NCBI RefSeq assembly: GCF_014274465.1
Contig: NZ_CP060394.1
Location: 2,914,001 to 2,978,000, forward strand
Direction of reading: 5' to 3'
DNA from: Alloacidobacterium dinghuense
GTDB lineage: Bacteria; Acidobacteriota; Terriglobia; Terriglobales; Acidobacteriaceae
Length of the DNA: 64,000 bases
The position numbers and the translations under genes were made by a program. The notes beneath the pieces were generated by a model. That model was not told where the DNA came from. It saw only the letters and a program-made list of their open reading frames with translations, and searched no databases. Each line of letters starts with the position of its first letter. The stretch's first letter is position 1. Below, one piece after another: positions 6,416-44,575 of the stretch.

Positions 6416-7404
6416 GCACGCTAGCAAGTGTTATTGAAAAGGGTTTGTATTCCGCGCTGCCGGCCGCGAGCATTCCTGGCCGCCTCTATTTCGCAACGGA
6501 CACAGAGCAGATCTGGCGCGACAACGGAACGTCATGGGATAACGTCACGCCTGCCGGCGCGAGCGCCATCACTGCGCTCACCGGAGATGTGACGGCAACC
6601 GGCCCTGGCAGCGCAGCGGCCACGCTCGCAGCTTCTGGCGTTACAGCCGGTACATATAACAATCCGACCGTCACGTTTGACGTGAAGGGACGTGCGACAG
6701 CGGCAATCAATGGATACTTTGCCGATAGCGGATCAGCTAACGCATACGCGGTGACGATCTCACCGGCCCCATCGTTGGTTGCAGGCTTTGGATTCCAGAT
6801 GAAGGCAGCTCACGCCAACACTGGAGCCAGCACGGTCAGCATCAACGGCGGTACGGCGATCAACATCACCAAGGCGGGCACGACCGCTTTGACCGGCGGC
6901 GAGATCGCAGCGGGTCAGATCATCGAGCTGGCATACGACGGCACCGAGTTTCAAATCATTGGTGGAAGCGGATCGGGCGGCGGCGGTGTCACGCAGATCA
7001 TTGCAGGAACCAATGTCACTATTTCGCCTTCGGGGGGAACCGGTGCGGTCACGATTGACGCTGGGGGTGGCGGCGGGGGCGGCAACCTGTACGGACCAGT
7101 TGATGCGCAGACTGGAACCTCGTATACGCTTCAGCTTTCCGATGCGCCCAACGGACTCGGGACTGTGACGATGAACAATGCGGCGAATAATACGGTCACT
7201 GTTCCACCGAACTCCAGCGTGAATTATCCGGTCGGCACCGTCCTCGAATTTGTCCAGCTCGGAGCAGGACAGACAGCCTTGGCTGCAGGTGCCGGAGTAA
7301 CGATCAACACTCCCACCAGCCTTTCTTGCCGGGCTCAGTATTCAACGATCGCGATCAAGCAGATCGCAACCAATGTGTGGGTTGCTGAAGGAGATTTGCA
7401 ATGA
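6412..7404 (+). CDS. Phage tail fibre protein, second fibre-repeat gene
   Basis: A 330-residue protein that starts with TTG at 6412 inside the TTGA overlap with the previous stop; no ATG lies near the N-terminus. Residues about 10-35 (SALPAASIPGRLYFATDTEQ) form a common fibre N-terminal adaptor. Residues about 55-105 repeat the shaft unit of the upstream gene (ALTGDVTATGPGSAA, then VTFDVKGRATAAING). A glycine tract lies near residues 215-225, followed by a C-terminal beta domain. Weak start codon plus overlap suggests translational coupling. The shared repeat implies duplication of the fibre gene or recombination between fibres. Confidence 0.6.
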   Translation: MSTLASVIEKGLYSALPAASIPGRLYFATDTEQIWRDNGTSWDNVTPAGASAITALTGDVTATGPGSAAATLAASGVTAGTYNNPTVTFDVKGRATAAINGYFADSGSANAYAVTISPAPSLVAGFGFQMKAAHANTGASTVSINGGTAINITKAGTTALTGGEIAAGQIIELAYDGTEFQIIGGSGSGGGGVTQIIAGTNVTISPSGGTGAVTIDAGGGGGGGNLYGPVDAQTGTSYTLQLSDAPNGLGTVTMNNAANNTVTVPPNSSVNYPVGTVLEFVQLGAGQTALAAGAGVTINTPTSLSCRAQYSTIAIKQIATNVWVAEGDLQ

Positions 7405-9755
7405 GATTTATGACCGCAATTTTGGTCTTGTTGACGACTGTGCCGGCGATGGCTCAGACCGGCGCGGGTGCTTCGCGTCGGCATGGCGAGCTGACGCCTC
7501 TTCAATACAACTTCGGCCCGTTTACCGCTGTCGCTCCTTACAATAATCAGCCTGGCTACACGCTATTATCGAACGCCCAAGTGCAGCCCGCGTCGACGAT
7601 CTCGGATAACAACGCGTTCGCTTCTACTTCAAACTTCACCGCAATCCGCCAGGACGATGCGACGACGACGTTCAGTGTGGCGTCGAACGTGGGTACAATC
7701 ACTACCGGTTCTGCTTCCGGGGCGAACTATGTCATTGGGAGTTCCGCCTCGTCATTCTCGATTCCGGATACATTTATCGAAGTCGAGATTATGCAGAACG
7801 GGACGACGAGCGGCACGGATCATATTGCGCTGGGGATGACTGCGCCTGAGTCGGGTTCTAATCCGACTTTGCAGATCAACGCTGAAGTGGATATGGTGGG
7901 CAGAAATTGCTTTATGCATGTTCTCTACGCCGGGACAGACCATGTACTCGGCTCGGCGTCTTTTACCGCCCCATCCGCACCGTGGTATCTGGGTTTCTCC
8001 CTGATGGGTTCGCAGGCGACGGCTTTCTATAACTCTGGCAGCGGATGGCAGCAGATCACGACGGGGGATGTGTCTTCTTATTACGACCCGCGTACATCGG
8101 GCAATCTGACCGGATTTCAGACGGCGGTCAAGCTATTTACTTCGCAGGCGACAACTTGGAAGCTGGCGAATCTGAAGACGGGGCTATTCGGGGGCACGGG
8201 GATGCGTGACGTTGCGCTTGTAACCTATCCGGATGGCCGCCCCTATATGCGAGGCTCGGTAGCCTATTTCATAGCGTCCATTGGAGGGTTTACAAGCACA
8301 ACGCTCGATTCTGGAAACGCGATTTTTTCTTATGATCTGGTCAGTGGGACGCTGACAATGCTCGGTTCGCTCGGCGTAAGCAGGAGCAGCGCTGTCTATG
8401 AAGACCAGGCCGGCGATATCATCTATGACCCCATCAACAACCAAGAGCGACTGTTAATTGGAACGTGGGCAACGACTAGCAACGCCCCCGCGACTGTTTA
8501 CACATCACAGTCAATTTCAACTGATGATTGGCTGTCGGGTGGCCCGCATGTTACGCCAGCCGCATCAACGGTGACGGTTCCAAGTGCCTCATCAAACTAT
8601 GACGCTAATATGGCCTGCACAAGCTGGAACTATTCCGCCAGCACCTGTTCTTTGTGGACCATGGCGATAGTGTCGGGAAATCCAGGCTCGGGCGTAGGCT
8701 CTGAGTTTCTCAGCTCGACGGCTGATCCGAGTGCTAACTCGTGGTCGGTGCTGGCTTCCACATCGAACTTGGGTTATGAGGGTTCGCGCATTTTGCGAAC
8801 AGCAACTACATCAGGAAGTAAAGGGGTCAGCTATTTTGGCGCATGGGGCGGCAAGATTGGCAGCGCAGTGAGGACCAGCTCGATTTACAGCCCGGCTGGC
8901 AGCAGCCTCGGCGCATTGAATGCTCCCTGGCCTGCTGGAACCTTTAATCCTTCGCATCCAGAGTTGGTCGCATTCGGCAACACTGAATATCTCATTAGTT
9001 TCGCCGATGTGCTTTGGGGTACAGCTTCGGGATCGATTGGCAATTTTGCCGTGTCATCGGCACCTAAGTATGTCCCGCAGACAAACTGGCCCACCCTTGT
9101 AAACACGGGCTCTACTTTCTCGGGGTCATCCACTGTTTCTAGCGTGACTCTATCGACAGGCGACTATGCATCGTCCTTCACTTTTACTGCAGGTGACCTG
9201 GTTATCGCTGTAGGAAGGGGTAACAGTGCGAGCGAAACAACGATGTCAATTACGGATTCCCTAGGCGACACGTTCACCTGTGGAACCATCAACTCGATTT
9301 CTCCATCCGGCGCAACGGGATATGACTTTGGATGCTATAGTTTCGTCACTCACAGCGGCACTGCAACCTTCACGCATAGCATTGGGACTTCAGCAAATTT
9401 TGTTGGATTGACCGTCGAGCAGTTTCGTCCCGGCTTTTTGACTTCCGTCGATAATGGGGTCAGTTATTCAAACATCGTTACCGGCAGCAAGGTCTCGCTC
9501 TATACGAGCAACGCCTTTTCCACCTCGGCAAAGGGCCTTGTCATCGTTTGTCCGGACGCGCTGTTCAATGCGGGCACATTTCAGCCTGGTTTGATTGGGC
9601 CTTATGCGGCATCCTTCGGAGCGGGGTTCAGCTCGGGGGCTGCACCCTGCATTGGTACGCTAACCAATGGAGCGCAGACGAGCATCACGGCCACACTCAA
9701 CAATGGACTTGCTGCAACTGGGTGGTGGGGTGGGACAATCATGAGCTTCAAGTAG
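7401..9755 (+). CDS. Secreted beta-rich protein at the end of the tail operon
   Basis: A 784-residue protein whose ATG overlaps the previous stop (ATGA), preceded by GAAGGAG. Residues 1-19 form a clear Sec signal peptide ending AMAQ, which is unusual for a virion tail component. Residues about 60-245 look like a lectin/LamG-type sandwich. Residues about 255-545 have spaced motifs (LVTYPDGRPY, VYEDQAGDIIYDP) suggestive of a five-bladed propeller as in glycosidase-like proteins. Residues about 560-784 form a separate beta-sandwich. I cannot name a family. It could be a depolymerase-like host-range factor or a lysogen-encoded surface protein. Position in the operon is certain; function is not. 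Confidence 0.55.
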   Translation: MRFMTAILVLLTTVPAMAQTGAGASRRHGELTPLQYNFGPFTAVAPYNNQPGYTLLSNAQVQPASTISDNNAFASTSNFTAIRQDDATTTFSVASNVGTITTGSASGANYVIGSSASSFSIPDTFIEVEIMQNGTTSGTDHIALGMTAPESGSNPTLQINAEVDMVGRNCFMHVLYAGTDHVLGSASFTAPSAPWYLGFSLMGSQATAFYNSGSGWQQITTGDVSSYYDPRTSGNLTGFQTAVKLFTSQATTWKLANLKTGLFGGTGMRDVALVTYPDGRPYMRGSVAYFIASIGGFTSTTLDSGNAIFSYDLVSGTLTMLGSLGVSRSSAVYEDQAGDIIYDPINNQERLLIGTWATTSNAPATVYTSQSISTDDWLSGGPHVTPAASTVTVPSASSNYDANMACTSWNYSASTCSLWTMAIVSGNPGSGVGSEFLSSTADPSANSWSVLASTSNLGYEGSRILRTATTSGSKGVSYFGAWGGKIGSAVRTSSIYSPAGSSLGALNAPWPAGTFNPSHPELVAFGNTEYLISFADVLWGTASGSIGNFAVSSAPKYVPQTNWPTLVNTGSTFSGSSTVSSVTLSTGDYASSFTFTAGDLVIAVGRGNSASETTMSITDSLGDTFTCGTINSISPSGATGYDFGCYSFVTHSGTATFTHSIGTSANFVGLTVEQFRPGFLTSVDNGVSYSNIVTGSKVSLYTSNAFSTSAKGLVIVCPDALFNAGTFQPGLIGPYAASFGAGFSSGAAPCIGTLTNGAQTSITATLNNGLAATGWWGGTIMSFK

Positions 9756-10730
9756 GCTGTGCCCAAGCCGGTTCAACGGTTGCTCAATAAAGTAATAGTT
9801 GAGGTAGCCGAGCACGAAGATGATCGTGAGGAGCGTGGGCAGCGCGATATACCAATGGCCGCCAAACTGGATGAGGCTAAACTCCTGCCAGATGTAGAGG
9901 CTGTAGGACATCTGGCCGAGGCTGACCAGCCATTTCGCATTAAGCGGCCTTGACAGAACCGAATCTGGTCTCGTGGATGTCACTGCGAGGATCAGTGCAA
10001 TGACGATCGATTCCCGCGTGGGGATGAACTTATGATAAGAGCCGATACAGGCGACAAAAGCCAGCAAGAGCGGCCAGAGCATCCAGGCGCGGAGCATCTT
10101 CTTCAGGCGGACGATCATGAGCGCTAGCAGGCAGCCGAACAGTATGGCGTCAGCGCGATATTGCGTCAGGAAGCTGTAGGCGACATGCTCGGACAGCAGA
10201 ATGTTCCAGTCTGCGATGCGCCACAGGCAGACAATGATGCAGCCGAGCACTGCGACGGTCCATGCCTTTCTGCGCAGCAGAAGAAGGATCGCGGGCCACA
10301 CGAGATAGAATTGCTCCTCGATTGAGAGCGTCCAGAAGTGGCCGGTAAGCAGGTTGTGGCCGACGTAGTTGCGGAAGAAAAAGAGTGCTGGAATGACCCC
10401 GAAATTGTCGCTGTGCAGCACGATGCAGACGAGGGTGACGATGCTTAGATAGAGCCACGCACTGGGCATCAGGCGAAAGAAACGACGCCTGTAAAATTTG
10501 CCGAGGTCGATGGTGTCTGTGGTGTTGAGTTCGCTCAGAAGTTTTGAGGTGATCAGATAGCCGCTGAGGACAAAGAAGATTGTGACGCCATGCTGGCCGA
10601 GGTAGCTGAAAGTCTCATATCGGGTCGCCCTAAAGCAGGAATGCTGCACATGGTCAATCAGGACAAGCAGGATCGCAATGCCGCGCCATCCATCGAGAGT
10701 TGGAATCCGGGCGTTCTTGGAGGTATCCAT
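9660..10730 (-). CDS. Acyltransferase 3 family membrane protein (candidate surface-polysaccharide O-acetylase)
   Basis: An integral membrane acyltransferase of the OafA/Oac type. The N-terminus has the family signature RIPTLDGWRGIAILLVLIDH, containing the Arg...His pair needed for acyl transfer, then FFVLSGYLIT. About ten hydrophobic segments follow, and the expected ending EQPLNRLGHSL. After that the frame continues about 30 residues antisense to the end of the secreted tail-operon gene, so the two genes overlap tail-to-tail by 96 bases. I chose ATG 10730 over GTG 10754 because family homology begins right after it; neither has a good ribosome site. Likely role: O-acetylation of a cell-surface glycan, possibly phage-encoded. 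Confidence 0.8.
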   Translation of the reverse strand: MDTSKNARIPTLDGWRGIAILLVLIDHVQHSCFRATRYETFSYLGQHGVTIFFVLSGYLITSKLLSELNTTDTIDLGKFYRRRFFRLMPSAWLYLSIVTLVCIVLHSDNFGVIPALFFFRNYVGHNLLTGHFWTLSIEEQFYLVWPAILLLLRRKAWTVAVLGCIIVCLWRIADWNILLSEHVAYSFLTQYRADAILFGCLLALMIVRLKKMLRAWMLWPLLLAFVACIGSYHKFIPTRESIVIALILAVTSTRPDSVLSRPLNAKWLVSLGQMSYSLYIWQEFSLIQFGGHWYIALPTLLTIIFVLGYLNYYFIEQPLNRLGHSLLEAHDCPTPPPSCSKSIVECGRDARLRSIG

Positions 10731-11020
10731 TTGAGCCAGAACATCATATCCCACAGATATGGGAGAGTCTGGTTACCGTGGCGTCTCGGGAAGTATGAAA
10801 AATGGAATACAGGAATTATCTTGCACTAGTGGTGCAGCCTAAATCCTGTATTCGGTGCAGAATAATTCCGGCAGCCACATCTCTGTATCTTTATTTGATT
10901 TGTTTTCAATACCTTAAGAATTATTTTGCCGATCATCCCCTTGACAAAGGAGAAGCAGGGAAAAGCCCGGGGCTAATGAGGGCTACCGTAAGAAGTTTGA
11001 TTGTGAGTGAAAACCCTCCT

Positions 11021-11090
11021 CCCCTCGGCGGCTAAAGCCGCGCTCATTTTGTGGCACTTACGGCACGGCTGAAGCCGTGCCCCTTCAAAG
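11021..11090 (+). repeat. Composite REP doublet, copy 1
   Basis: Two palindromes in fixed order: GCGGCTAAAGCCGC (11028-11041) and GGCACGGCTGAAGCCGTGCC (11062-11081), followed by CCTTCAAAG. The same pair recurs four more times in this window (near 32870, 38540, 42040 and 42555). Confidence 0.85.
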
Positions 11091-11288
11091 CAACGGTTTT
11101 TCAGCACCCTCTAGAGCCTTTTTTCTTGAGGTCTTACCGCATGGCTGAGCGCCGCTCTTTCACGGCCCTCCTGCTTCCAGGTCAAACGATCCAACTCCAA
11201 CCACCGTCAAAGGGATCACCATTATTATTTAGCCGATTACCCGGGAGGTGCTTTGCACCTCTTTCGGTTGGTTGGTTAGAGATATTGC

Positions 11289-38455: not shown

Positions 38456-38538
38456 GCGAATGTGACGACTCCCGAAGCCAACCTTAGCACACGCCAATGG
38501 GAAAACTTTGCATAGATATATGCCGAAGGGAGGAATGC

Positions 38539-38608
38539 GTCTCCTCGGCGACTGAAGCTGCATTCGAACATCGTTGTTCGGCACGGCTGAAGCCGTGCCC
38601 CTTCAAAG
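38539..38608 (+). repeat. Composite REP doublet, copy 3
   Basis: A diverged first palindrome (TCGGCGACTGAAGCTGC) followed at the standard distance by an exact GGCACGGCTGAAGCCGTGCC with CCTTCAAAG. It lies between carB and the TPR gene. Confidence 0.75.
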
Positions 38609-38646
38609 CTGGTCTGGCGACCAACCAATTGCAATATTTCTAGTTG

Positions 38647-41600
38647 CTACTTCACGGCTTCCTGCTCCGCGTGCAGGTGTTGCAGAGCGTTGACTTTAGT
38701 GGTGTGCTTCTGCAGCGCCTGGATGCCTTCCGCTGCTGCACGCGCGGCGGCGATGGTTGTAATTGTTGGAATGCGCTGAAGAACGGCTGCGCGGCGGATT
38801 GCTTTTTCGTCGAAGAAGGGATCCTGGCCGTGCGGCGTGTTGAGGATGAGCTGGATGCGCTCACCCTTGATGAGGTCGACGACATTCGGGCGCCCTTCCT
38901 TCACCTTGAAGACGCGCTCGACCACCATGCCGGCCTTTTCGAGAACATTGGCGGTGCCTTCGGTTGCGACGAGATGGAAGCCTAACTCGACGTATTGACG
39001 CGCCAGTTCTACCACAGCCTGCTTGTCGCGGTCATTCACGCTGAGGAAGACTGTTCCCTTGAGCGGCAGATGGAGGCCTGCTGACAGCTGCGCTTTGGCG
39101 AAGGCTTCGCCGAAGTTGTCGGCTACTCCCATGACTTCGCCGGTTGATTTCATCTCGGGGCTGAGGACGGTGTCGACGCCCTGGAACTTGTTCCATGGGA
39201 AGACTGGCGATTTCACGAAGTAGTGCGTGCCGGTTTCGAGGTCCTTGCCGCTCTTGACCTGTTCAGGCAGAAGTTCGCGCAACCTGCGGCCCGTCATCAG
39301 GCGCGAAGCGATCTTCGCCAGCGGTATGCCAGTTGCTTTGGAGACATAGGGCACGGTACGCGAGGCGCGCGGATTGACTTCGATGACGTAGACCTTATCG
39401 GGTTCGCCGGCTTTGCGCTGAATCGCAAATTGCAGATTGACGAGGCCGATGACGTTGAGCGCCAGCGCTAGCTTGCGAGTGTAGGCGCGGATCGTGTCGA
39501 GTACGGCGGGAGCGAGATCGACGGCGGGCAGCACGCAGGAGGAGTCGCCGGAATGGATGCCAGCCTCTTCGATATGCTGCATGATGCCGGCGATGACAAC
39601 GTCTTCGCGATCGCAGAGCGCGTCGACATCGACTTCGACCGCGTCTTCGAGGAAGTGGTCGATGAGGACGGGTCGCTCCTGCGAGTACTCGACTGCCTCT
39701 CTCATATAGTGAGATACGGCATCGCTGTCATAGGCGATGACCATGGCGCGTCCGCCAAGCACGTATGAAGGACGCACGAGCACCGGATAGCCGATGCGCT
39801 CCGCGCCTTCGAGCGCTTCTCCCACGCTGGTGGCCATTGCGCCCGGGGGTTGCGGAATATCGAGGTCTTCGAGCAGCTTGCCGAAGCTCTTGCGATCTTC
39901 TGCGAGGTCGATGGACTCGGGCGACGTTCCGAGAATTGGCACGCCTGCGGCTTTCAGACGCAGCGCGAGGTTGAGCGGAGTCTGCCCGCCGAACTGCACG
40001 ATCATGCCGACTTCGGCGCCGCCGGATGACTCGTGCTCGTAGATGGCGAGCACGTCTTCGAGAGTTAATGGTTCGAAGTAGAGGCGATCACTGGTGTCGT
40101 AGTCGGTTGAGACGGTCTCAGGGTTGCAGTTGACCATGATCGTCTCGTAGTCGTCTTCCTTGAGCGCGAAGGCGGCGTGGCAGCAGCAGTAGTCGAACTC
40201 AATTCCCTGCCCGATACGGTTGGGGCCGCTGCCGAGGATAATGACTTTGCGCTTCGCGGTTGGGGCGGCTTCATCTTCTTCGTCGTAGGTCGAGTAAAGG
40301 TACGGTGTCATGCTCTCGAATTCGGCAGCGCAGGTATCGACGAGCTTGAAGACGGGACGTATTCCGTGGCGATACCGCAGTTGGCGGACCTGCGCGATTC
40401 CTTCGTGGTCCTGCATACCCCACACAGCGGCAATGCGCTCGTCGGAGACACCCATGCGCTTCGCTTTTCGTAACAGTTCCGGTGACACATTCGTTGGGTT
40501 GAACTCAGCCACCTTCGCGATGATGTCGGTCACTTCCTTGATGTGGTAAAGGAACCAGGGGTCCATTGAGGTCATGCGCGCCACTTCGCGCACGCTTAAG
40601 CCCCGACGGAAGGCAAAGCGGATGTATTCGAGACGACCCGGTTTCGGTGTGACCAGCATCTGGGTGAGACGGCGTGGGTCGAGGACTTCGGTGCCGGTCT
40701 TCTTGCCGGTTTCGAGAGAACGCAGCGCCTTCATCAACGATTCCTTGAAGGTGCGGCCAATCGCCATCACTTCGCCAACGGATTTCATCTGCGGGCCGAG
40801 GTTTTCGTCGGCTCCGGGGAATTTTTCGAACTGCCACTTGGGGATTTTGGTGACGACGTAGTCGATGGTCGGCTCGAAGCAGGCCGGAGTCATCTTGGTG
40901 ATGTCGTTCGGAATCTCATCGAGCGTGTAGCCGACGGCGAGCTTCGCTGCAATCTTCGCAATCGGGAAGCCGGTCGCTTTCGATGCCAGCGCGGAAGATC
41001 GCGAGACGCGCGGGTTCATTTCGATCACCGTCATGCGGCCGGTCGTGGGATGCACGGCGAACTGCACATTCGAGCCGCCAGTCTCGACGCCGATCTCGCG
41101 CATCACGGCGATAGCGGCGCTGCGCATCCTCTGGTATTCGCGATCGGTCAGCGTCTGCGCGGGCGCGACGGTGATCGAATCGCCAGTGTGGACGCCCATC
41201 GGGTCCATGTTTTCGATAGAGCAGATGATGATGACGTTGTCGGCGAGATCGCGCATCACCTCAAGTTCGTATTCTTTCCAGCCGAGAACGGATTCCTCGA
41301 TGAGGCACTCATGCACCGGCGAGAGATCGAGACCGCGGGCGAGGATCTCCATCAGCTCTTCGCGGTTGTAGGCAATGCCGCCGCCCGATCCGCCGAGCGT
41401 GAAAGACGGACGGATGATGACCGGGAAGCCGATCTTGATGGCGAACTCAAGGCCGTCGCGAATGTTGTTGACCAGCGCAGACTTTGGCAGGTCAAGGCCA
41501 ATGCGCGTCATCGCGTCTTTGAAAAGGAGACGGTCTTCGGCCTTCTTGATCGCTTCAAGCTTCGCGCCGATCAATTCGACATCGTACTTGTCGAGAATTC

Positions 41601-41946
41601 CTGAATCGGCGAGATCGACAGCAAGGTTGAGCGCCGTCTGTCCGCCGACGGTCGGCAGCAAGGCGAACTTGCCGGTGCGGCCTTCGTCACGGAGCATCTG
41701 CGATTCGATGCGGATGATTTCTTCGACATAGGCGGGCGTGAGCGGCTCGATGTAGGTGCGGTCGGCAAGCTCGGGGTCAGTCATGATGGTGGCCGGGTTC
41801 GAATTCACCAGCACCACTTCATAGCCTTCCTGCTTGAGCGCCTTGCACGCCTGCGTGCCCGAGTAGTCGAACTCGGCGGACTGCCCGATGACGATCGGGC
41901 CGGAGCCGATCACGAGAATCTTGGTGATGTCATTCCTGCGTGGCAT
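38647..41946 (-). CDS. carB: Carbamoyl-phosphate synthase large subunit
   Basis: A 1099-residue synthetase domain making carbamoyl phosphate from bicarbonate, ammonia and two ATP for arginine and pyrimidine synthesis. Two homologous halves each carry an ATP-grasp core: [20 protein letters not shown] in the first, [20 protein letters not shown] in the second. Oligomerisation and C-terminal methylglyoxal-synthase-like allosteric domains are present ([20 protein letters not shown]). Length is normal with a slightly long C-terminal tail. The start is ATG 41946 ([16 protein letters not shown]); the frame is open 17 codons further. Unlike the usual carA-carB pairing, a RAYT/REP island separates it from carA. 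Confidence 0.97.
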
Positions 41947-41962
41947 CTTGTTCTGCTCTTCC

Positions 41963-42547
41963 TTAATAATTCTGGTCGGGAGTAGTCCCTGCTCCAAAAG
42001 TCTCTGAATTCTGATCTGAAACAGGTCTCAATCTTTGAAGGGGCACGGCTTCAGCCGTGCCATGCGCCTCGTCTATAGCACGGGGCTTTAGCCCCTGAGG
42101 GATTGCATCCAGTTGATACCCCGGAAATGCCGAGCTGTATGCATATTCCTGGCCAATCGTGCACAATTTTGCCTTTACCGGATTCAACCAGATGTAATGC
42201 TTGTGCTTCTGGAAGTCTTCAATATCTCGAATCCTGTGATCGGCGAATCCTCGCTGCCAGATGTTATGTTTCGTTTCAAACTGCAATGAGGCGTGTCTTG
42301 AAAATCCACCTTTGATGAGTTGCACTGCTTTTTCGAGACTCCCTTCTGGCGTAATGATGAGATGGAAATGGTCGGGCAGGACAAATTCGTGCAGTTGAAA
42401 ATTGCCTGCCGCTCGATAGCTGTAGAGGGTCTCAAGAAACAATTTCGACCAACGTTCGTAACGGAAGAATGGCCGCCGTTCACTCGTCTCGGAAGTGACG
42501 AAATAGGTTTGGCGGTTTCTCGTCGCTGGTTCTCGCTTGAGCCTCAC
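41963..42547 (-). CDS. REP-associated tyrosine transposase (RAYT, Y1-family)
   Basis: A 194-residue single-strand transposase-like protein of the IS200/Y1 superfamily. The HUH metal site is [11 protein letters not shown] and the nucleophile tyrosine lies in [14 protein letters not shown], with the RAYT-typical [18 protein letters not shown] between. Start GTG 42547 is preceded by CTGAGGGAACCAC, the outer edge of a REP doublet. The last 45 codons are encoded by a second REP doublet in inverted orientation. RAYTs recognise and nick REP hairpins; here gene and both flanking doublets form one unit. It lies between carA and carB. Confidence 0.88.
42033..42100 (-). repeat. Composite REP doublet, copy 4 (inverted, inside the RAYT 3' end)
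   Basis: GGCACGGCTTCAGCCGTGCC (42042-42061) preceded by CTTTGAAGG, then GGGGCTTTAGCCCC (42082-42095) with CTGAGGG. It is the exact inverse arrangement of copy 5 on the other side of the RAYT gene. Confidence 0.88.
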
Positions 42548-42553
42548 GTGGTT

Positions 42554-42621
42554 CCCTCAGGGGCTAAAGCCCCCTTTTTATCTCACCGTCACGGCACGGC
42601 TGAAGCCGTGCCCCTTCAAAG
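42554..42621 (+). repeat. Composite REP doublet, copy 5 (upstream of RAYT)
   Basis: CCCTCAGGGGCTAAAGCCCC, spacer, GGCACGGCTGAAGCCGTGCC (42593-42612) and CCTTCAAAG. With copy 4 it brackets the RAYT gene as inverted ends about 590 bases apart. Confidence 0.88.
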
Positions 42622-42672
42622 ATTTTGATTCACCGCGTATCAGGCACCGTGCCTCTACAAATCCTGGCTTTC

Positions 42673-42700
42673 AAAAAAATGGCGGGACTTGAAGCCCGCC
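42673..42700 (-). terminator. Rho-independent terminator of carA
   Basis: On the minus strand GGCGGG-CTTCAAGT-CCCGCC followed by a run of seven T (plus-strand A tract 42673-42679), starting 2 bases past the carA stop codon. It separates carA transcription from the RAYT gene and carB. Confidence 0.85.
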
Positions 42701-42702
42701 GC

Positions 42703-43830
42703 TTACCTCTTAAAATCTTCCATCATCTTCCGGAAATCGCGGAAGAGATAGTGCGAATCGTGCGGCCCGGGACTGGCTTCAGGATGGTACTGCACGCTGA
42801 AGAGCGGGAGCGATTTGTGGCGCAGCCCTTCGACGGTATTGTCATTCAGGTTGACGTGTGTCAATTCGAGCTCTTCCTGATTGATCGAAGCTGCATCCAC
42901 TGCATAGTTGTGGTTCTGGCTGGTGATCTCGACCTTGCCCGTCTCTGTCTGCTGCACCGGATGATTGCCGCCGTGGTGCCCAAACTTCAGCTTGAAGGTC
43001 TTGCCACCCAGCGCCAGCCCGATGAGCTGGTGCCCGAGGCAAATTCCGAAGATCGGCTTCTTTCCTGCCAGCTGCCGGATTGTCTCCTGCGCGTAGGCAA
43101 GCGGCTCCGGATCGCCCGGACCGTTCGACAGGAAGACACCGTCGGGATTCATGGCCAGAACATCTTCTGCTGAAGTCTGCGCGGGAACCACGGTTACGCG
43201 ACAGCCTTCCTTCGACAACATGCGAAGAATGTTTCGTTTGATGCCGTAGTCGTAGGCCACGACGTGGAGATCGGGCCTCGGCAGTCCCACAGCGTTTTCT
43301 TCCGACTCGAGCGGATCGACTTCCGGCTCCCATTCGTAGCGCGTCTTGGTGGTGACGACACTCGCAAGATCGGTCCCATCCATCTTGCGGATCGAACGAG
43401 CCTTCTGCACGAGCACTTCGGGATCGGTTTCGATCGACGAAATGACGCCGCGCATCACGCCGTTGTTGCGCAGGTGGCGCACAAGAGCGCGCGTATCAAT
43501 CTCGGAAATAACGGGAACGTTGAAGCGCTCAAGGTATTCATCTGCCACCTGCTGCGAGCGCCAGTTCGAACTGATCGGCGAGAATTCGCGCGTGACAAGG
43601 CCTTCGATATAAGGCTTGTTGGCTTCGTTGTCAGCAGAATTGGTTCCGTAGTTGCCGATCTGCGGATTGGTAAGAACGACAATCTGTCCGGCGTAGGAAG
43701 GATCGGTGAAAATTTCCTGATAGCCGGTTAACGATGTATTGAAAACGACTTCGCCGTAGCACTCGCCTTTGGCCCCGTAGCCTTCGCCGCGGAAGATGCG
43801 CCCGTCTTCGAGCGCAAGTATAGCCTGCAT
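42703..43830 (-). CDS. carA: Carbamoyl-phosphate synthase small subunit (glutamine amidotransferase)
   Basis: A 375-residue subunit that hydrolyses glutamine and channels ammonia to CarB. The N-terminal CPSase domain has [20 protein letters not shown]. The class I amidotransferase domain carries the nucleophile Cys in [18 protein letters not shown], and the His/Glu pair in [14 protein letters not shown]. Start ATG 43830 ([11 protein letters not shown]) has GGAGAAG just upstream; the frame is open 8 codons further. It ends in a strong terminator and is not contiguous with carB. Confidence 0.96.
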
Positions 43831-43933
43831 CGCTTCTCCATGGAGTGGATTCAATAGATTTTATCAGGTTTCAACGCCTCAGCCGCGCTGCATCTGCGAT
43901 ATTCTTGGATGAATTTTTCAACCGGGGGATTGC

Positions 43934-44575
43934 ATGATTCTTCGTCCTCGAAGCCTCCTCGCTTTCGCCGTTCTAGCTTCTTCGATGATCGCCGTCAGCC
44001 AGACCCAGAATAACGAGCAGCAAGAAAAATTTGCAGCCATGACGAAGACAATGCATGTGATGGGAACGTTTCGGGGCACAACTCCGTGCGCGGATTGTAG
44101 CGGCATTATCACTACCCTCACGCTCTACCAGAAAGACCCGAACAATTACATCGACGCTGTCTACCGGCTGCAGTTGAAATACATCGACCGCGGCAGCTTC
44201 ACGAAATACGGCGAGTGGACCATCCTTCGCGGCCGGCCCGGCGACGACAACGCAACGGTTTACCAGCTCGATCCGGATGGACCGGGCAAGCAGTACTATC
44301 TGCGCGTGGGCGATAAAACCCTGCAGCAACTCGACGGCGACATGAAGCCGATCGACTCAAAGCTCAACTTCACACTCAAGCGCATCGGCGGGTCGCAAAG
44401 TAAAAACATCGGCATGCCGAATCCCGCTTCGGTTAACTGCACCAAACAAGGCGGCACTCTGAAGATCGAGACGGGAAAAGATGGCGGCCAGATTGGCATT
44501 TGCACCTTTCCGAACGGGAAGCAGTGCGAAGAGTGGGCGTTGATGCGGAGTGAGTGCAACCCGAATGAGAAATAG
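43934..44575 (+). CDS. Secreted NlpE-like protein fused to a DUF333 domain
   Basis: A 213-residue exported protein (signal peptide residues 1-23). Residues about 38-155 match the NlpE N-terminal barrel: GTFRGTTPCADCSGIITTLT with the Cys52-x-x-Cys55 pair, then LYQKDPNNYIDAVYRL and YQLDPDGPGKQYYLRVGD. Residues about 160-210 match DUF333 (NIGMPNPASVNCTKQGG, then GICTFPNGKQCEEWALMRSE). No lipobox cysteine is at the signal cleavage site, so it is probably soluble periplasmic. NlpE senses envelope/copper stress in E. coli; that role is only suggested here. ATG 43934 follows a GGGGGA site. Confidence 0.75.
   Translation: MILRPRSLLAFAVLASSMIAVSQTQNNEQQEKFAAMTKTMHVMGTFRGTTPCADCSGIITTLTLYQKDPNNYIDAVYRLQLKYIDRGSFTKYGEWTILRGRPGDDNATVYQLDPDGPGKQYYLRVGDKTLQQLDGDMKPIDSKLNFTLKRIGGSQSKNIGMPNPASVNCTKQGGTLKIETGKDGGQIGICTFPNGKQCEEWALMRSECNPNEK

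Follow-up and report, generated by a model that had tools for sequence, protein, structure and literature searches.

In the window, by which we mean the whole 64-kb stretch of Alloacidobacterium dinghuense DNA analysed here, the genes for the two chains of carbamoyl-phosphate synthase flank a gene for a REP-associated tyrosine transposase (RAYT). On the minus strand carA is followed by an intrinsic terminator, a REP doublet, the RAYT, a second REP doublet inverted to the first, and finally carB. The features are the following:

42703-43854, minus strand: carA, carbamoyl-phosphate synthase small chain (Pfam PF00988 and PF00117)
42681-42700, minus strand: intrinsic terminator after carA, followed by ATTTTTTT (hairpin and fold)
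42554-42622: 5' REP doublet, stems at 42593-42612 and 42560-42573 (covariance-model match 42539-42623)
41963-42547, minus strand: RAYT, 194 amino acids, GTG start (NCBIfam NF047646)
42032-42101: 3' REP doublet, inverted relative to the 5' one and in frame in the RAYT C-terminus (covariance-model match 42031-42116)
41966-42031, minus strand: non-REP codons of the extreme RAYT C-terminus, towards carB; their lengths vary among relatives
41944-41965, minus strand: RAYT stop (TAA 41965-41963), 16 nt with a Shine-Dalgarno-like stretch, and carB ATG
38647-41946, minus strand: carB, carbamoyl-phosphate synthase large chain (Pfam CPSase_L_D2 and others)
38527-38610, plus strand: stand-alone REP doublet just past the carB stop (covariance model, 76.6 bits)
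11007-11092, plus strand: stand-alone REP doublet elsewhere in the window (covariance model, 93.5 bits)

The genome comprises 6.27 Mb in one contig and harbours carA and carB only once each (a single match at E<=1e-60 and at E<=1e-50, respectively). An earlier note on this DNA had described a self-contained unit of RAYT and inverted REP doublets between carA and carB, preceded by a strong terminator, and both points are confirmed: the anatomy is as described, and the hairpin at 42700-42681 (GGCGGGCTTCAAGTCCCGCC, then ATTTTTTT) folds with -13 kcal/mol at a z-score of -2.9.

The RAYT passes the cut-off of the NCBIfam profile REP_Tyr_transpos (NF047646) with 107 bits against 80, and that of Pfam Y1_Tnp (PF01797) with 27.8 against 23 bits. 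The catalytic residues are present in the alignment, namely the HUH motif (H60-F-H62) and the tyrosine Y118; just before the HUH motif one residue is absent, where the relatives have a methionine. The best solved relative is PDB 4er8, a RAYT from E. coli in complex with a REP hairpin, which is found by sequence (E 4.5e-8) and also ranks first among the solved structures when the predicted fold is compared. The window RAYT would presumably cleave its REPs. In the predicted structure the pLDDT is about 94-98 for residues 11-150 and 52-71 for the tail encoded by REP sequence; at these values the idea of the tail as a folded domain was dropped. In E. coli the activity of the RAYT rises when the last 13 residues are removed, and residues of its tail touch the REP (reported in PMC8266576); because of these effects the REP-coded tail is worth testing. 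The dN/dS ratio is 0.10-0.26 in ten out of eleven pairs of related RAYTs from carAB loci, the remaining pair being saturated.

The two doublets are mutually inverted, with the stems GGGGCT..AGCCCC and GGCACGGCT..AGCCGTGCC. A 20-base palindrome pattern (up to two mismatches) finds 11 sites in the 6.27 Mb and none in the reversed control, therefore these palindromes are not due to chance. The window accounts for four of the 11 sites, and the doublets framing the RAYT contain two of these. From eight doublets of this genome found with the pattern, including the 5', the 3' and both stand-alone doublets of the window, a covariance model was built. It scores nine doublets above 55 bits, the eight builders among them, so that beyond the framing pair there are seven more full-length doublets, six of which are model builders. 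At E<=0.01 the genome contains at least 57 REP doublets (150 of 537 candidates scored); the usual number given in PMC2817692 is more than 100 copies per genome. Four of the eight model doublets fall into the window, two of these outside the RAYT unit. The chance of finding at least two of six doublets in 64 kb is 0.0015, in a test made after the fact, and clustering of REPs near a RAYT is reported from other bacteria (PMC2817692). With 150 candidates scored per genome, the same model has 115 matches in the relative G033, 100 in G047, 29 in G088, 19 in G070 and 6 in G119, and none in G017 and G104; in the RAYT search no match is listed for G017 and only a weak one for G104. At 3999562-3999985 of the window genome (G000:C1) three REP-doublet-like matches follow each other about 170 bases apart.

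Stem arms of the 5' and the 3' doublet are identical in 15 of 24 loci, with 3.0 expected by permutation, as is to be expected for a RAYT with its own REPs. The hairpins are bordered by the motifs TTTGAA[AG]GG and CCTCA, and inspection by eye reveals no GT(A/G)G head at the hairpin feet of the window or its relatives. The candidate ribosome-binding site is a GAGGG stretch that forms part of the outer rim of the 5' doublet and lies 6 nt upstream of the GTG start; this refines the earlier proposal that the start signal of the RAYT is made of REP sequence. The accompanying proposal that REP sequence also encodes the last 45 codons holds in part: about 23 of them (PQGLKP...GTAEAVPLQ) are encoded by the 3' doublet, while the last 22 are not REP.

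Two known types of elements resemble this unit. REPtrons consist of an HUH-Y1 protein (RAYT, also TnpA-REP) and flanking inverted REPs which coevolve with it (PMC2817692, 2010; PMC8266576, 2021); according to these papers the REPs lie near the gene in some species, and RAYT genes occupy conserved positions among relatives. The window RAYT is likewise flanked by inverted REPs with further copies elsewhere in the genome. However, it differs from a REPtron in that its reading frame continues across the 3' REP doublet, and since the GT(A/G)G head is not visible the unit was not filed as a REPtron of the GTAG type. In TIRtrons, or TIRYTs, the tyrosine transposase gene stands between inverted, sometimes double palindromic, repeats which may overlap the gene ends, and a distinct acidobacterial TIRYT group that includes Koribacter has been described (PMC3733652, 2013). 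The long inverted doublets of the window unit overlap the gene in a similar way, the 3' one in the reading frame and the 5' one with the candidate ribosome site; this likeness concerns the layout of gene and repeats. A fixed genomic site, coupling to an operon or an analysis of the reading frame across relatives is not part of the TIRtron description in the passages of PMC3733652 considered here. With the IS200/IS605 elements the window RAYT shares the fold, judged by solved structures, but it reaches only 19.9 against the cut-off of 55 for the NCBIfam IS200 profile, and the window genome holds one copy of the gene. The only other Y1 protein of this genome is divergent: over a stretch of 102 amino acids it reaches a score of 59, below the RAYT cut-off of 80. 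The unit is filed as a RAYT unit of the REPtron/TIRtron type, and what is new about it is the position in the operon and the in-frame doublet.

Variation at the carA-carB junction, in the form of inserted sequence or an open reading frame, is known from Neisseria and Pseudomonas. We know of no RAYT in the junctions of these two genera. The open-licence papers searched yielded no account of a RAYT linked to carA-carB or coupled to a downstream gene, and those dealing with carA or carB none of the junction in Acidobacteria.

For a comparison with relatives, 80 named loci were fetched via CarA (the best 80 of 590), and searches of 120 family genomes gave a RAYT match in 98 and a carA match in 110 of them; most of the gap regions were then fetched. 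Loci L224-L237 and a third genus mate (G120) stayed outside the further analysis. With the window counted, 27 distinct loci of Acidobacteriaceae and kin have a RAYT or its remnant downstream of carA (28 rows, as L125 repeats L014), 19 from the family genomes and eight from the named set, and in all 27 it is oriented along the carAB strand. Among them is one locus (L031) whose contig ends before carB, and one (L101) from a genome, G090, with a second carA on another contig. In a 28th locus (L220) the RAYT lies just before carB and carA falls off the fetched stretch. In the 60 sucC-sucD and trpB-trpA loci searched likewise there is a single weak match to the RAYT model, on the other strand and outside the gap of the gene pair.

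This distribution bears on the view of the earlier note that a RAYT-REP cassette has recently transposed by itself into a linked carA-carB pair and split it, so that carB gained a new promoter. Some observations fit such a history: the genus mates G070 and G119 (L124, L213) have no RAYT in the fetched gap, carA and carB can be tightly linked in relatives (L126, L128, L148, L157), and of the 28 RAYT rows only that of the window shows a terminator downstream of carA (nine of all 139 gap rows have one). However, the nearest kin of the window RAYT, with 78% over 99 columns, belongs to L014 (= G088), one of two sister-lineage genomes, where it sits between the same genes as a broken copy; the other genome, G017 (= L127), has none there. 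Together with the same-oriented RAYTs or remnants at the other 26 loci, these same-site relatives largely refute a recent split, which we regard as very improbable. When it proposed to compare the gap in related genomes, the earlier note had itself named the occurrence of this RAYT at this position in distant relatives as speaking against its view, and the junction is loose throughout the family even where no RAYT is present.

In a maximum likelihood tree of 54 RAYT rows, 25 of 26 carAB rows form one group with L220 and three relocated copies (support 90/86, not starred). As named from translations of the neighbouring genes, the relocated copies lie between rplT and pheS (L098), between genes for an HflX-type GTPase and a nudix protein (L099), and between GcvT-type and oxidoreductase genes (L102). 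The remaining carAB row, L061 from a more distant acidobacterium, is placed outside in the best tree, although a clade of the 29 rows plus L061 is not rejected (p 0.14). A clade of the core group without the three relocated copies is not rejected either (p 0.18), whereas it is rejected when L061 is added (p 0.007).

The same distribution could also arise if one RAYT lineage had inserted repeatedly and independently at a target site between carA and carB, with no common descent at this place. This would explain why L061 groups with other RAYTs and why three close kin sit before other genes. Moreover the presence of the RAYT is patchy: on the CarB tree its distribution looks random, with 22 changes compared to a mean of 21.4 after shuffling (130 rows, 23 with a RAYT). 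On the other hand, RAYT and CarB distances are correlated (Mantel r 0.65, p 1e-4, n=21), none of the RAYTs outside the group in the 54-row tree is found at carAB except L061, and the uniform orientation in 27 out of 27 loci argues in the same direction, although selection for coupling could favour it as well. We consider repeated insertion unlikely.

Common descent at the site would have to be combined with loss and exchange. The RAYT data reject a grouping of L021 with L033 and L167 (p 0.008), the CarB data one of L021 with L017 and L095 (p 4e-5); in both cases the groups were named after the trees had been seen. Because the two trees conflict over L021, at least one lineage has probably received the RAYT of another lineage at the same site. 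Traces which may stem from such exchange are pieces of the flanking genes within the gaps. In 110 gap rows the search gave nine matches in seven rows, two of the rows being repeats, so that five distinct gaps hold pieces of the carB 5' end (30-69 nt) or of the carA 3' end (25-54 nt, from the last 70 nt); the best of 220 shuffles reached 12 compared to the threshold of 18. By inspection L031 also holds such a piece. At 680-777 of the L022 gap, in front of a GIY-YIG gene, a copy of the first 50 nt of carB joins a copy of sequence near the carA end with 7 nt shared. We infer that these extra pieces arose when one side was joined by homologous recombination and the opposite side by microhomology. 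A strict search for REP scars finds remnants in only five of 97 distinct RAYT-less gaps of at least 40 nt, one of them probably by chance, and a former RAYT in most relatives is therefore not claimed.

In 20 of 21 carAB rows the linker that separates the two hairpins of the 3' doublet has a length divisible by three (18 or 21 nt; 23 in L035), which is true of only seven of 19 RAYTs outside the clade. The carAB stops, L061 excepted, are located past the doublet (20 of 21 rows), compared to six of 19; these counts leave out rows without a detected second hairpin or motif. Where the doublet is no more than 400 nt away from carB (19 loci), the stop of the RAYT frame falls between -5 and +20 nt of the carB ATG twelve times, those of the other two frames three and six times (12/19 against 9/38; Fisher p 0.0045, ignoring kinship). 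When the bracket is widened to 40 nt on either side the contrast becomes smaller (15/19 against 12/19 and 12/19). Four loci have the RAYT stop directly before the carB ATG, and two have a TAATG overlap. The window, with 16 nt between RAYT and carB, has stop and start very close, as in coupled gene pairs; the RAYT of L220 overlaps carB by 1 nt, and in L021 both genes form one open frame without a stop in between (about 6679-10512; 1283 residues from the RAYT match, stop mark included). In eight carAB rows, including L061, the distance is larger with 60-1078 nt, and in L110 it is 31 nt. At 1495-2574 of L105 a related RAYT runs in frame through a degenerate REP into an apparent GNAT acetyltransferase, as read from the translation.

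From this arrangement we infer that the RAYT is a translationally coupled member of the carAB operon. Since its frame ends at or near the carB start, ribosomes finishing the RAYT could be handed over to carB. A rival view is that a compact junction by itself yields both the in-frame doublet and the closeness of the stop to carB as by-products, while carB uses its own ribosome site and the RAYT has no role in its expression. The carB of the window does have its own Shine-Dalgarno-like sequence (AAGGAAG), part of the tail sequence is fixed by the palindrome constraint alone, and the predicted confidence of the tail is low. Other cargo is also found right next to carB: in RAYT-less gaps of at least 300 nt the largest open reading frame ends between -40 and +35 nt from carB in 33 of 68 rows, so that the junction may be tight for any gene. 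Against this stand the other frames at the same loci, which stop near carB less often, the RAYTs of other clades, most of which (13/19) stop within or before the second hairpin, and the relocated kin L098 and L099, where a possible start of the next gene (pheS and nudix, respectively) overlaps the RAYT stop by 4 nt. The by-product view is a serious competitor, but on balance we doubt it.

As the RAYT stop is near carB in 12 of 19 loci and only one of the 28 RAYT rows has a terminator, the simple reading for the relatives is co-transcription of carA, RAYT and carB, which these sequence features suggest. In the window itself partial termination may be combined with read-through or with an internal promoter. 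The earlier note had concluded that carB must have its own promoter; a search for sigma70-like promoters on the carB strand finds none in 41900-44200, though carB may still have one.

The RAYT is not the only gene found at this place. Gaps between carA and carB exceed 150 nt in 70 of 100 cases of the family sample (median 558, RAYT-bearing gaps included), compared to six of 30 for sucC-sucD and nine of 29 for trpB-trpA; this comparison covers 32 relatives and the window genome, with one of the 30 trp loci unresolved and an artefact value of -783 kept. The gaps of the trpB-trpA loci (L268-L297) reach up to 743 nt. Cargo was clustered by single-linkage similarity, with open reading frame rows that include repeats, and Pfam scans of eight representatives gave matches for seven. 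The largest cluster consists of 37 rows, and its scanned member has a carboxypeptidase-regulatory-like domain. Further rows comprise 27 with a RAYT, 12 GIY-YIG, eight DNA methylase, eight XhoI endonuclease and four of a second GIY-YIG type, besides smaller clusters. A DNA methylase and an XhoI-type endonuclease occur together between carA and carB in L019, L039, L156, L168, L170, L172, L178 and L184, and the endonuclease frame ends within 7 nt of carB in seven of these eight loci (the L019 pair being the one scanned with Pfam). The genus mate G119 (L213) carries the gene for a TIR-domain protein of 415 residues at the junction; the carA piece on the same contig is incomplete and holds stops. 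In the genus mate G070 the gap likewise has other contents, and aligning it at the nucleotide level with the gap of the window reveals no homologous RAYT. An association of the GIY-YIG cargo with REP doublets was dropped, with REP pieces near the gene end in few of 11 flanks.

Taken together, we hold it to be rather probable that a unit of the REPtron/TIRtron type entered the carA-carB junction essentially once, was inherited, lost and exchanged there, and became an operon member that abuts carB. The unit would consist of an HUH-Y1 transposase gene between two inverted REP doublets, presumably its substrates, and would have reached the junction in an ancestral acidobacterium. Afterwards it would have been inherited, often lost, and exchanged among lineages without leaving its site, through homologous recombination within the flanking carA and carB and now and then a join by microhomology. 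As a member of the operon, the RAYT gene would use the outer edge of the 5' doublet as its ribosome-binding site, and its frame would cross both hairpins of the 3' doublet to end at or near the carB start, where translational coupling could set in.

RAYTs are regarded as domesticated, with no evidence of mobility of their own in the account of PMC8266576, and the upkeep of single-copy RAYT genes without evident mobility is described as an open question of the field (PMC6006769, PMC8266576). A more far-reaching idea, which we put forward only tentatively, is that the transposase, selfish in origin, is costly to lose as a translationally coupled member of an essential operon, that the REP doublets serve at once as substrate, ribosome-binding site and C-terminal codons, and that the junction in Acidobacteriaceae is a cassette port at which RAYT, XhoI-type restriction-modification, GIY-YIG, TIR and secreted-protein genes are exchanged between species via recombination in the flanks. 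For RAYTs this would offer a testable route to persistence, by coupling to an indispensable gene and spread by exchange of junctions rather than by transposition, and in these bacteria the junction within a core operon may act as a port for defence and mobile genes.
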